Source of the DNA: Halanaeroarchaeum sp. HSR-CO
Lineage (GTDB): Archaea; Halobacteriota; Halobacteria; Halobacteriales; Halobacteriaceae
Direction of reading: 5' to 3'
NCBI RefSeq assembly: GCF_024972755.1
Contig: NZ_CP087724.1
Span: 1,364,001-1,428,000 of the forward strand
DNA length: 64,000 nucleotides
The notes beneath the pieces were generated by a model, which made no database searches, was not told where the DNA came from, and worked only from the letters and a program-made list of their open reading frames with translations. A program made the position numbers and the translations under genes. Of the stretch, positions 5,325 through 8,226 are shown piece by piece. The number at the start of each line of letters is the position of its first letter. Position 1 is the first letter of the stretch.

Positions 5325-5717
5325 ATGACGTACACACATCGAATCGAACGAGACGGCGAGTTCGACGAAGTTGTCGAGGCGACCACCGAGGCGTTGGAAC
5401 AGGAGGGTTTCGGCGTCCTGACAGACGTCGACATCCAGTCGACGATGGCCGAGAAGCTAGGCGAAGACATGCGCCAGTACCGAGTTCTGGGTGCCTGTGA
5501 CCCGAGCGTCGCGCACGCGGGCATCGATGCCGAACCCGAACTCGGAGCTCTCCTCCCGTGTAACGTGGTCGTCCAGGAGATGGAGAGCGGGCGAATTGCG
5601 GTCAGCACGGTCGATCCGACCGCGCTCGTTGGCCTCACCGGCAATCGGGACCTCGAATCTGCGGCCGAGGGGGTAAGTGCCCGATTCGATTCGGTGCTCG
5701 AGGCCATCGACGAGTAG
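5325..5717 (+). CDS. DUF302 family protein
   Basis: This 130-residue protein has the DUF302 core: FDEVVEATTEALEQEGFGVLTDVDIQSTMAEKLG, the YRVLGACDPSVAHAGI motif, and LLPCNVVVQEMESGRIAVSTVDP. These match bacterial and archaeal DUF302 proteins, whose function is not settled. The conserved Cys of the LGACDP motif is kept. An in-frame upstream extension to 5235 is open but reads as basic junk, so I use the ATG at 5325, which gives the family N-terminus YTHRIERDGEFDEVV. Confidence 0.88.
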   Translation: MTYTHRIERDGEFDEVVEATTEALEQEGFGVLTDVDIQSTMAEKLGEDMRQYRVLGACDPSVAHAGIDAEPELGALLPCNVVVQEMESGRIAVSTVDPTALVGLTGNRDLESAAEGVSARFDSVLEAIDE

Positions 5718-5754
5718 TTGGGTCGCAATCGAAGGTCAGGTGACCTAGCAATGG

Positions 5755-5762
5755 AATTATGA
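5755..5762 (+). promoter_or_regulatory. TATA box of the winged-helix gene
   Basis: AATTATGA is centred about 28 bases before the ATG at 5787, suggesting a leaderless transcript. Confidence 0.45.
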
Positions 5763-5786
5763 TTACGCACCCCGAACCTTCGATGT

Positions 5787-6158
5787 ATGGATTCGCGCCC
5801 GCCCACCGTAGATGAGAATCCGCCCTTGCAGACGGTGCTCACCTCACTGACGGACGAGGACAGTCGGCGGATTCTCGAGAGCCTGAACGATCCACTCTCT
5901 GCCAGGGAGATTGCGGAGGTGTGTGATATCCCGCTCTCGACGACGTATCGGAAGTTGAACGTCCTCTCGGAGGCATCGTTGGTGTCCGAACGGATCGACG
6001 TGAGCGAGCCGGGCAAACACACCACCCGATACAAGGCGGATTTCGAGAAGGTCACGGTGAAATTGAACGAGGACGGGGAGTTTCAGGTCGATGTCGCAAC
6101 GGAGATAGCAGGCAGGGACTCCGTGTTGTCCACTCGATGGCAGGAGATAACCCATTGA
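5787..6158 (+). CDS. ArsR/winged-helix transcriptional regulator
   Basis: This 123-residue DNA-binding protein starts its winged helix near residue 15 (LQTVLTSLTDEDSRRILESLNDPLSAREIAE). The recognition helix follows in PLSTTYRKLNVLSEASLVSER, and a short beta tail starts with HTTRYKADFEKVTVKL. The pattern is that of haloarchaeal ArsR-like regulators. No cysteine metal site is evident; the only Cys is in VCDIPLS. It is preceded by the DUF302 gene in the same direction but has its own promoter-like box, so it may be independent. Confidence 0.82.
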   Translation: MDSRPPTVDENPPLQTVLTSLTDEDSRRILESLNDPLSAREIAEVCDIPLSTTYRKLNVLSEASLVSERIDVSEPGKHTTRYKADFEKVTVKLNEDGEFQVDVATEIAGRDSVLSTRWQEITH

Positions 6159-6321
6159 CCATTTTTGCTCCCTGACGGGGTGCGATTCCGCACGGGGCTA
6201 TTCGGGTCGTGTGTTTCCGTGGCAGTGGAGTGCGCTTTCCCATCCCGTCAGCGGTCGCCGCTCGGGTACGACCACAGAGCGTGCGGTGCTTGGCAGTCCC
6301 TACCCTTTAGACCGACACGAC

Positions 6322-6330
6322 TATATTATT
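6322..6330 (+). promoter_or_regulatory. TATA box of the DtxR-like regulator
   Basis: TATATTATT lies 29-37 bases upstream of the ATG at 6359, so the transcript is probably leaderless or nearly so. The operator palindrome at 6328-6343 overlaps its downstream edge. Confidence 0.6.
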
Positions 6331-6343
6331 AGAGCCGTCTAAT
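6328..6343. promoter_or_regulatory. predicted DtxR/MntR-family operator palindrome
   Basis: ATTAGAGCCGTCTAAT is a perfect inverted repeat: 6-base arms ATTAGA/TCTAAT around GCCG. It lies between the TATA box and the start codon of the DtxR-like regulator, where a bound dimer would block TBP/TFB or polymerase. Autoregulation is the simplest reading; the assignment to this regulator is inference from position. Confidence 0.6.
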
Positions 6344-6358
6344 CTTTAGCGTAATCAG

Positions 6359-7051
6359 ATGACCAGTGACGTTATGGAGGACTATCTCAAGACCATCTAC
6401 TCCCTCCAGCAGGACGTCGGTGCCCCAGTGCGAACGTCAACTATTGCCGAGCACCTGGACGTGACCCCACCGACAGTATCGAGTATGCTCTCGTCGCTCG
6501 AAGAGCGTGAATTGATCGTTCGAGAGAAGTATGCGGGTGCGGAGTTGACCGATGCAGGTGAACGGAAAGCTCTCGAAATTCTCCGTCATCATCGACTGAT
6601 CGAGTCGTTTCTCACCGAGTACCTCGACTACGAATGGTCCGAGGTTCACGACGAGGCCGACGTCCTCGAGCATCACATCAGTGAATCCTTCGAGCGACGC
6701 GTCGCGGAGGCACTCGATAATCCGACAGTGGATCCGCACGGGGACCCCATCCCCGATGCAGAACTGTCCAAACCCGTCACCGTCGACACCGATCCACTTG
6801 CCGACCACGACGCCGGTGAGACCGTCGTAATTGCTCGAGTCCGCGACCGGGACGTGGACGAACTCGAATATCTCGCCGACGTGGGCATCGTCCCAGGAAC
6901 GACGGTCACGGTCATCGACGTCGCACCAATCGGATTGTACTCGCTTGTCCACGAGGAGGGACGTGTCCAGCTTCCCGCGTCCATCGCCGAAGCGACTCAC
7001 GTATTCTCCGAAGCATCCGTGGAGCCCAGTGAGGAGGTGACCAGGACGTGA
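6359..7051 (+). CDS. metal-dependent DtxR/MntR/SirR-family repressor
   Basis: This 230-residue regulator has the three DtxR-family parts. The winged helix (residues 1-62) has DYLKTIYSLQQ and TVSSMLSSLEERELIVREKY. The metal-binding and dimerisation domain (65-140) has ALEILRHHRLIESFLTEYL and DEADVLEHHISE. The FeoA-type SH3 domain (about 145-220) has LEYLADVGIVPGTTVTVID. The family senses Mn(II) or Fe(II). The downstream neighbour is a TMEM165/GDT1-type cation transporter joined by a GTGA overlap, which favours manganese. A palindrome in the promoter suggests autoregulation. Confidence 0.9.
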   Translation: MTSDVMEDYLKTIYSLQQDVGAPVRTSTIAEHLDVTPPTVSSMLSSLEERELIVREKYAGAELTDAGERKALEILRHHRLIESFLTEYLDYEWSEVHDEADVLEHHISESFERRVAEALDNPTVDPHGDPIPDAELSKPVTVDTDPLADHDAGETVVIARVRDRDVDELEYLADVGIVPGTTVTVIDVAPIGLYSLVHEEGRVQLPASIAEATHVFSEASVEPSEEVTRT

Positions 7052-7749
7052 TCGGTTGGGAAGAGGTCTTCATCGTCGCGTTTACCACTCAGCTCGCGGC
7101 ACTCCCAGGCGAGAAGGTCCAGTTCATCATCGCCGGGCTTGCAACGAAGTATCGACCCTCCGTGGTCGTCGGTGCAGCAGGGTTGGCGTTCGGACTCTGG
7201 ACCGTCCTCGAGATCTGGGTCGGCAACGCGATCAGGACGGTCCTCCCCGGTGTGTACCTCACGGCCTTCACCGGGGGGCTTTTCGCCCTGTTCGCCATCT
7301 GGCTCTATCGGTCGGCCCCACGGGCGTCAGCTGAATCCTCTCGATCGAGTGGCGATGCGGAGGACCGCGTCGACGAGCTCGACCTCTCGCTCTTTGGCTA
7401 CGAGGTTCCGCAGTACCTCGGTGGATTCGTTCCGATCTTTCTCTTGATGGCCGCCGGCGAGTTCGGGGACAAGACCCAACTCGTGACCATCGGTCTCGCG
7501 GCTACCTACGGTGCCCATCCAGCTATCTGGTTCGGTGAGATGGCTGCGATCATCCCGGTTAGCATGGCGAACGCGGCCTTCTTCCACTCGTTCTCGCCGA
7601 AACTCGATCGGCGTCTCGCACACCTCGCCGGCGCGACGCTGTTCGCCGTGTTCGCAATCGATAGCATGCTGACCGTCGTCGCCGGGTTCTCGCTGTGGGA
7701 GACCACTGTCGATGCCATCGCCTCCGCCCTCCTGTTGCTGGTAGGCTAA
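7048..7749 (+). CDS. TMEM165/GDT1 (UPF0016) family cation transporter
   Basis: This 233-residue membrane protein has two homologous halves of three hydrophobic helices each. The second half carries the family motif E-x-G-D-K-T (AAGEFGDKTQLVTIGL). The first half has only LAALPGEKVQFIIAGL, so Glu is lost and Asp is replaced by Glu. The family moves Mn(II), Ca(II) or H+ across membranes. A charged loop (SSRSSGDAEDRVDELD) separates the halves. The start is the GTG that overlaps the repressor stop (GTGA), so translation is probably coupled. Its likely role is manganese homeostasis. Confidence 0.88.
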   Translation: MIGWEEVFIVAFTTQLAALPGEKVQFIIAGLATKYRPSVVVGAAGLAFGLWTVLEIWVGNAIRTVLPGVYLTAFTGGLFALFAIWLYRSAPRASAESSRSSGDAEDRVDELDLSLFGYEVPQYLGGFVPIFLLMAAGEFGDKTQLVTIGLAATYGAHPAIWFGEMAAIIPVSMANAAFFHSFSPKLDRRLAHLAGATLFAVFAIDSMLTVVAGFSLWETTVDAIASALLLLVG

Positions 7750-7781
7750 CCGCGACCTGCGTGCTTACGTGTCACACAATC

Positions 7782-7788
7782 AATATTA
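7782..7788 (+). promoter_or_regulatory. TATA box of the small membrane protein gene
   Basis: AATATTA is centred 27 bases before the ATG at 7812 and decides the start of this short gene. Confidence 0.5.
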
Positions 7789-7811
7789 TGCTGGAGCACA
7801 CATGGACCAGT

Positions 7812-8057
7812 ATGGTATTCGAGAACGTCACCGCCCTGGAATTGCACCTGCACACCAGCGAGGAGGCCCCCCTTCCGCCCGTCTCTCGCCCGGACCGGAG
7901 CGCGGACCGATCATCGAAAAAGGAGACGTCCACGCGGCGAGTCAGTCCGAAGACGATGGCCATCGCGATGCTCGTCGTGAGTATCAGTCTCTCGATCGTC
8001 GTCACCCTGGTCGTGCGGAGATTCCGCTCGAACGGGGACGACGAGGGTGCTGAATAG
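7812..8057 (+). CDS. small single-pass membrane protein, unknown function
   Basis: This 81-residue protein has a polar N-terminal half (FENVTALELHLHTSEEAP) and one C-terminal transmembrane helix (MAIAMLVVSISLSIVVTLVVRRF) with Arg residues at the end. The helix is likely anchored with a short acidic tail inside. An upstream in-frame ATG at 7788 exists, but the TATA box at 7782-7788 places transcription start close to 7812. I do not recognise a function. It follows the metal-transport pair but has its own promoter. Confidence 0.6.
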   Translation: MVFENVTALELHLHTSEEAPLPPVSRPDRSADRSSKKETSTRRVSPKTMAIAMLVVSISLSIVVTLVVRRFRSNGDDEGAE

Positions 8058-8226
8058 TGACTGGCCAGGCCGGTCGGTGAGACTCGGGTTTCGCCAGTCT
8101 TTCTCAGTACCGAGTCATCTACACAATGTATTTATGCTGAACCGGTGAACCTCTAGATGCGTCGTCCTCGAACAGTACCGCCGTACGAACGTCGTGGTGA
8201 CGTAGTCACCGAACGGACCCGATGAC

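Follow-up and report, generated by a model that had tools for sequence, protein, structure and literature searches.

The gene pair studied here codes for a putative metal-dependent regulator and a transporter of the GDT1 family, and it raises the question of which metal would control the pair and whether that metal would switch the transporter on or off. The pair lies in a window of 64,000 nt, the whole stretch of DNA that was analysed, from a genome of 2.79 Mb in two contigs; the GC content of the window is 56-65% (2-kb steps). Coordinates are collected in Table 1.

Table 1. Features of the regulator-GDT1 locus (positions in the window).
Feature	Position	Strand	Details and basis
SirR/MntR-type DtxR-family regulator	6359..7051	+	230 aa; HTH, metal-binding/dimerisation domain, FeoA/SH3-like domain
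GDT1/UPF0016-family transporter	7048..7749	+	233 aa; PF01169 7.5e-26, two repeats
GTGA stop-start overlap, regulator-GDT1	7048..7051	+	sequence; exact 4-nt overlap in 36/49 pair loci
TATA-like box TATATTAT of the regulator-GDT1 operon	6322..6329	+	sequence; relatives' promoters have CAaa.TTta directly 5' of the operator
Predicted operator ATTAGAGCCGTCTAAT	6328..6343		6-bp exact arms, non-palindromic centre; 11/12 match to TTAGACNNGTCTAA
LPGEKV replacing first GDT1 motif	7102..7119	+	homolog comparison
Second GDT1 motif EFGDKT, canonical	7459..7476	+	homolog comparison
Upstream neighbours: ArsR-like HTH gene (PF12840) and DUF302 gene	5787-6158 and 5325-5717	+	profile matches

The operon and its two proteins

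The sequence-only reading of this DNA had proposed a DtxR/MntR-like regulator, a TMEM165/GDT1-type transporter as the next gene, a GTGA stop-start overlap joining the two, and a palindrome overlapping the edge of the TATA box. All four were borne out. The regulator matched PF01325 (6.1e-18), PF02742 (8.6e-29) and PF04023 (FeoA; 3e-14), each above the cut-off, and the transporter matched PF01169 with 90.7 bits (cut-off 27) in two stretches. The overlap was present at 7048-7051, and TATATTAT (6322-6329) covers the first two bases of the operator ATTAGAGCCGTCTAAT. Both operon and operator are genuine and belong to a known kind. The palindrome had been described as an exact 16-bp inverted repeat; this was correct for the site at 6328-6343 and its 6-bp arms, ATTAGA and TCTAAT, and was rejected for the full length, because the centre GCCG becomes CGGC on the opposite strand and is not self-complementary (12 of 16 positions are palindromic). 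Riboswitch control of the operon was rejected, as no yybP-ykoY match to Rfam was obtained in 5700-8100, even at E-values up to 1. Bacterial MneA-type genes differ in this respect, being reported under this riboswitch in 328 of 333 screened strains (PMC7380456).

As judged from its sequence, the regulator is a SirR/MntR-type DtxR protein. Putative ligand columns were located in an alignment with orthologs and two reference sequences. They are D8, H78, E82, H97, D101, E104 and H105, arranged as a D/D/E/H set (Asp8, Asp101, Glu104, His105) followed by His78, Glu82 and His97 at a second site. Each column is kept in 53 or 54 of the 54 orthologs, with Asp (45) or Glu (8) at column 101; at the column of MntR Glu11, 53 of the 54 have Lys11 and one has Arg. 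The NCBIfam MntR equivalog NF047407 gave 204.4 bits, below its cut-off of 350. The best PDB matches were 5zr4 ('metal-dependent transcriptional regulator') and 8pvt ('iron dependent repressor, putative'), and the nearest named matches were from haloarchaea. The own genome contained six PF01325 matches, of which four are strong; among the strong ones the paralog L004 has, by eye, Met/Cys at two ligand columns, as is typical of iron sensors.

Among characterised proteins, the FeoA-containing DtxR-family protein SirR of Halobacterium salinarum and Haloferax is one of the closest in kind: the protein of H. salinarum DSM 3754 is 61% identical and a probable ortholog, and at the corresponding Halobacterium locus GDT1 adjoins the regulator and the operator is present. 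From its FeoA domain and its being the sole match in that genome, this locus would be the gene called sirR. DR2539 of Deinococcus radiodurans, a Mn/Fe-responsive repressor, is alike in the Lys at the MntR Glu11 column, His98, the SH3-like domain and an inverted-repeat operator, and unlike in its target, the importer MntH, and its bacterial promoter (PMC3327659). MntR of B. subtilis is likewise a Mn-sensing member of the DtxR family with importers among its targets; it lacks a FeoA domain, has the Glu11 site that is absent from the haloarchaeal regulator, and is reported to activate exporters from upstream sites (PMC11275975).

The transporter shares PF01169 and the second motif EFGDKT with MneA and SynPAM71, also of the GDT1 (UPF0016) family, and differs from them in its first motif. 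Among 100 distinct homologs scoring 150 bits or more the first motif was LPGEKV in 90, a cut-off PGEKV in six and LPGEKG or LPGEKA in four; the second was EFGDKT in 99 and EVGDKT in one. Seven matches below 150 bits, namely two fragments (LPGEKV/LPGEKG) and five divergent proteins, are outside these counts. The signature E-x-G-D-[KR]-[ST], which GDT1/UPF0016 proteins carry in one or two copies, is present once, as EFGDKT. Compared with the residues of MneA, Glu is replaced by Leu and Asp by Glu in the first motif, with Lys kept, and the second motif is intact. Ala changes at Glu19 plus Glu116, Asp22 plus Asp119, Lys23 and Thr121 of MneA are reported to prevent complementation, where the Glu pair and the Asp pair may each have been mutated together (PMC7380456). 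The altered first motif suggests that the transport role of this GDT1 differs from that of MneA-type exporters. No convincing PDB relatives of the transporter were found by sequence. Of 292 genomes of the class, 219 had a GDT1 match (E up to 1e-10, divergent proteins included). Divergent GDT1 proteins (31-36% identical) stand in five regulator loci (L086, L087, L089, L094, L227); their first motif reads GDKG or TFGDKG, and its first residue, where seen, is not Glu.

Conservation of the operator at regulator and GDT1 promoters

Regulator promoters of relatives were scored against TTAGACNNGTCTAA. All 52 that passed the score filter, out of 54, contained a site that agrees with it in 9 or more of the 12 positions and lies between -22 and -31 relative to the start codon, and the operator is near-fixed in its distance upstream of the 54 orthologs. 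After masking of the sites, 130-nt windows drawn at random from these loci contained a matching site in 40 of 2910 cases. By their scores, the two promoters outside the filter are those of L103, with no operator visible, and L104, with a visible operator. The operator-bearing sequences are related, so these counts do not represent independent events. Absence of the palindrome from the same promoter in relatives, which would have spoken against it, was not observed in the scored set; the exception is G093, the sole genome of the same genus among 26 of the family, which has no close ortholog of the regulator (best 43%). The 43% paralog of G093 (L103) lies near a TroA gene and beside a transposase-like ORF.

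The consensus of the relatives' operators is TTAGACGCGTCTAA, and with its surroundings CAaa.TTta...TTAGACgcgTCTAA, which places a BRE and a TATA box directly upstream of the operator. The own operator departs from this consensus in the left half-site and the centre. A collection of named genomes gave the operator at 37 of 68 scored regulator orthologs; the 31 orthologs without a good site comprise eight bacterial rows and further haloarchaeal copies. Fifteen bacterial orthologs (Balneolaceae and others) were looked up and eight scored, none of which had the operator.

Within the own genome the motif does not stand out. ATTAGANNNNTCTAAT occurs once without mismatch in 2.79 Mb, base composition would give about 2.4 sites at one mismatch or fewer, and with up to two mismatches there were 18 motif sites against 28 for the reversed control. 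It is conservation in relatives that marks the operator as more than chance; the own-genome counts alone give no enrichment. A chance feature of an AT-rich promoter would fit the one-mismatch sites expected about twice per genome and the lack of genome-wide enrichment; set against the position and sequence kept in all 52 scored promoters and at GDT1 genes without an adjacent regulator, such an origin is hardly credible.

Those GDT1 genes (36 loci without a regulator match in about 1.5 kb upstream) separate the two possible targets of control. The operator is kept in 35 of the 36 promoters, the remaining one (L069) scoring 8; random 330-nt windows, as used for GDT1, had a site in 90 of 2910 cases. 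A regulator of the SirR/MntR type is encoded elsewhere in all 36 genomes. Of 42 regulator matches in these genomes 30 loci were examined, and 15 kept the operator; a sixteenth scored 9 with an iron-like box at -140, and at least one (L344) lies downstream of TroA, where a promoter of its own is not expected. Control of GDT1, more than self-repression, therefore appears to be what is conserved. The notion that GDT1 is a mere passenger of an autorepressed regulator was rejected, because the operator persists at GDT1 where no regulator adjoins, and so was self-repression as the conserved function (15/30 against 35/36). Of the self-repressed unit in the sequence-only reading, the operator on the core promoter of the regulator-GDT1 operon was supported, and autoregulation is less well conserved. 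As judged from these comparisons, it is new that conservation centres on GDT1 as the target and not on autoregulation.

At 24 of the 35 unlinked GDT1 loci (L011-L077) the operator is followed by an ORF of 9-83 codons whose end shares exactly 4 nt with the GDT1 start, as against 2.9 loci expected from shuffled gaps. The arrangement repeats the overlap between regulator and GDT1. Twelve leader ORFs were compared with the regulator: L061 resembled its N-terminus clearly (0/300 shuffles) and L070 weakly (9/300), while the other ten had no such resemblance (18/300 for L013). The view that the leader ORFs are generally regulator relics was rejected, as only L061 was clear among the 12. Also new, by these sequence comparisons, is that a short putative coupling ORF often stands at the place of the regulator cistron in unlinked loci. 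A LysE-type translocator follows the regulator in L094, L096, L098, L099, L326 and L327, replacing GDT1 or beside it; its identity was confirmed by PF01810 for L099.

Import genes and the iron box

The exact operator pattern occurred in 68 of 145 genomes, with 86 sites in sum, where the reversed control had 10. In the 30 loci listed for this pattern, SirR/MntR-type regulators and TroA/ZnuA-type substrate-binding proteins were recurrent neighbours; one of the latter was confirmed by Pfam. A dedicated search found a TroA-type ABC importer in 106 of 194 genomes. The broad operator pattern was matched at 62 of 70 TroA loci, and all 50 that passed the score filter had at least 9 of 12 positions. 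Two layouts were distinguished. The 'far' layout (39/50) has the operator at -64 to -103, by consensus upstream of the BRE and TATA box, and frequently has a further half-site, TTAGAT, adjoining the BRE; the 'near' layout (11/50) has it at -34 to -36 in ten cases and at -23 in one, near the expected transcription start. The operator centre is mostly TA at 'far' TroA sites and GC or GG at regulator and GDT1 sites (TroA promoters L162-L221). The TA centre and the TTAGAT half-site might reflect different paralogs or cooperative binding.

Some TroA sites may serve a DtxR paralog, since such a paralog follows TroA in two records. Downstream of TroA in 20 stretches, 16 had no such regulator, two had one of the SirR/MntR type (G028, G148), one (G101) had a paralog about 43% identical, and the last was a convergent TroA-GDT1 pair of genus g11. 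In the 11 genomes of that genus TroA and GDT1 are convergent neighbours, and in one stretch read the regulator leads GDT1. On annotated plasmids the gene after TroA is a SirR/MntR-type regulator in Halopiger and the paralog in Natrinema versiforme.

ZIP-like genes form a further group. Outside the own genome, 11 of 21 ZIP-like loci (two of them identical copies) had a site of at least 9 of 12 in the layout BRE-TATA-operator; the ten without a site were aligned only from residue 48 or later, or were 28-31% identical. Two ZIP-like neighbours that were scanned scored 20.8 and 25.1, below the Pfam cut-off of 35.1. A new observation, at the level of sequence, is that GDT1 promoters have a layout in common with those of probable uptake genes.

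The palindrome had also been offered as a ready-made motif for finding the regulon, by a search near metal-transport genes. Such a search gave no genome-wide enrichment (18 against 28) and one further candidate in the own genome. With at most one mismatch to TTAGACNNGTCTAA there were two sites, that of the operon and TTAGACAAGACTAA (G000:C1:731933-731946; L106:1501-1514), 77 nt before a ZIP transporter gene (PF02535, 6e-17). This gene, at about 732 kb, was demoted from firm regulon member to candidate, because about two sites are expected by chance and the site is not kept in ten homologs. These homologs are plasmid-borne; none has a TTAGAC-type site, three reach 9/12 with the sequence TTAGG, and iron-type boxes stand at -66 in several. 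A ZnuA-type importer was not found in the own genome, and the Nramp-like gene, its sole Nramp match, was rejected as a target since its locus contains no site of 9 or more.

The iron box TTAGGNNNNCCTAA had nine sites in the own genome against two in the control, at C1:117305, 423224, 1098077, 1504763-1513113 and others. These adjoin FeoA/FeoB (one box), ABC ATPases (one with a TOBE domain; one presumably SufC-like), a solute-binding protein and a gluconate dehydrogenase-3-like gene, and probably make up an iron regulon under a DtxR paralog. In the own genome, boxes of the iron type are thus distinct from those of the AGAC type.

Probable metal response and predicted sign of regulation

The best explanation of these data, and a probable one, is a Mn-activated repressor acting on an operator shared with GDT1, with the regulator as operon leader. 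The regulator would be a haloarchaeal metal-activated repressor of the SirR/MntR type, most likely sensing Mn(II). Its metal-loaded dimer would sit on the operator, downstream of the TATA box and ahead of the predicted transcription start, and so keep the initiation complex from assembling; both genes, regulator and GDT1, would be off when Mn is sufficient and on when it is scarce. GDT1 would be the conserved target, the gene of the regulator itself being controlled because it is often first in the operon. TroA-type and ZIP-like genes of relatives stand behind the same operator, and a single regulator would serve all of these sites.

This model meets a conflict of sign. Bacterial and cyanobacterial GDT1 proteins are described as Mn exporters, and the gene as Mn-induced in Vibrio (PMC7380456), which makes repression of GDT1 by Mn physiologically odd. 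If the bound regulator represses importers, GDT1, with its site in a blocking position, would be repressed in Mn excess; the operator place that it shares with probable uptake genes predicts the same, the wrong sign for an exporter. Either the role of haloarchaeal GDT1 is a different one, or a sign has been inferred wrongly. The sequence-only reading, which had proposed autorepression, did not address what this sign would mean at an exporter promoter. Evidence from Halobacterium NRC-1 supports the repressor, as zurM, zurA and ycdH are reported to rise in a sirR deletion and SirR to be a Mn(II)-dependent autorepressor acting on zurMA-ycdH; SirR is also among the genes upregulated early in metal stress, a poor fit to simple autorepression (PMC3600143). 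The TroA-family importer gene on pNRC200 has a weak operator site (9/12). GDT1 is not mentioned in the relevant part of the published SirR account (PMC3600143). The 39 of 50 TroA operators that lie upstream of the TATA box, at -64 to -103, speak against the blocking model at TroA. Archaeal regulators can also activate from sites upstream of the TATA box.

A tentative extension of the Mn-repressor model, which we regard as possible without expecting it, removes the conflict on the side of the transporter. The LPGEKV subtype of GDT1 would be not a Mn detoxification exporter but a Mn-starvation transporter, for Mn uptake or removal of a competing cation, repressed by Mn-loaded SirR along with TroA and ZIP-like genes. 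Where the regulator has moved away, a short leader ORF would have taken the place of its cistron or arisen from it by erosion, with translational coupling preserved and the operator staying.

Alternatives were weighed on the metal and on the sign. The earlier reading had left the choice between Mn(II) and Fe(II); Mn is the better guess, as iron genes carry another box. Sensing mainly of Fe(II), or of Fe and Mn equally, is rather unlikely: DR2539, with similar ligands, answers to both metals (PMC3327659) and haloarchaeal SirR has been discussed with iron (PMC11218638, PMC11349517), but the iron genes of the own genome have TTAGGNNNNCCTAA, and it is the paralog L004 that shows Met/Cys at the two ligand columns. 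Concerning the sign, GDT1 could be a true Mn exporter activated by the regulator at high Mn while importers are repressed, as with B. subtilis MntR. Exporting relatives (PMC7380456), the precedent of a bifunctional MntR (PMC11275975) and the co-occurrence of GDT1 with the TroA importer (both in 74 of 194 genomes, TroA only in 7, GDT1 only in 65, neither in 48) would all suit this arrangement. These counts, obtained with cut-offs of 1e-30 and 1e-100, ignore kinship, and they fit exporter and uptake readings alike. Activation is judged unlikely, since in regulator promoters and in those of unlinked GDT1 genes the operator follows TATA and precedes the start, a blocking position, ZIP-like genes have the same TATA-operator layout, and the activator sites of MntR lie upstream of the exporter genes (PMC11275975).

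Lastly, the regulator could bind without metal and be released by Mn, so that at low Mn an exporter would be repressed and an importer with an upstream site activated. Sensible signs would result for GDT1 and for 'far' TroA genes, whose operator lies upstream of the BRE and TATA box. At low Mn, however, this mode would repress the 'near' TroA genes (ten of 50 at -34 to -36, one at -23) and the ZIP-like promoters, DNA binding of DR2539 is abolished by EDTA (PMC3327659), and the importer rises in the Halobacterium sirR deletion (PMC3600143). Such a mode of action is very unlikely, and repression by the Mn-loaded regulator is preferred.

Leyn and Rodionov (2015) reportedly predicted palindromes as the sites of archaeal DtxR regulators. 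Their work is cited in a GDT1 review on Mn control of four halobacterial UPF0016 genes, which the review ascribes to ManS/ManR (PMC7380456); a regulon prediction for halobacterial GDT1 genes apparently exists already. Among the matches listed in the literature searched, neither the LPGEKV motif change nor the sign conflict was described. The locus provides a candidate haloarchaeal Mn operator with the half-site TTAGAC, distinct from the iron box TTAGG of the same genome, and the transport direction of GDT1 in archaea becomes testable by the response of its expression to Mn. If Mn repression of GDT1 is true, the view of prokaryotic UPF0016 proteins as Mn exporters would fail for a large haloarchaeal group.
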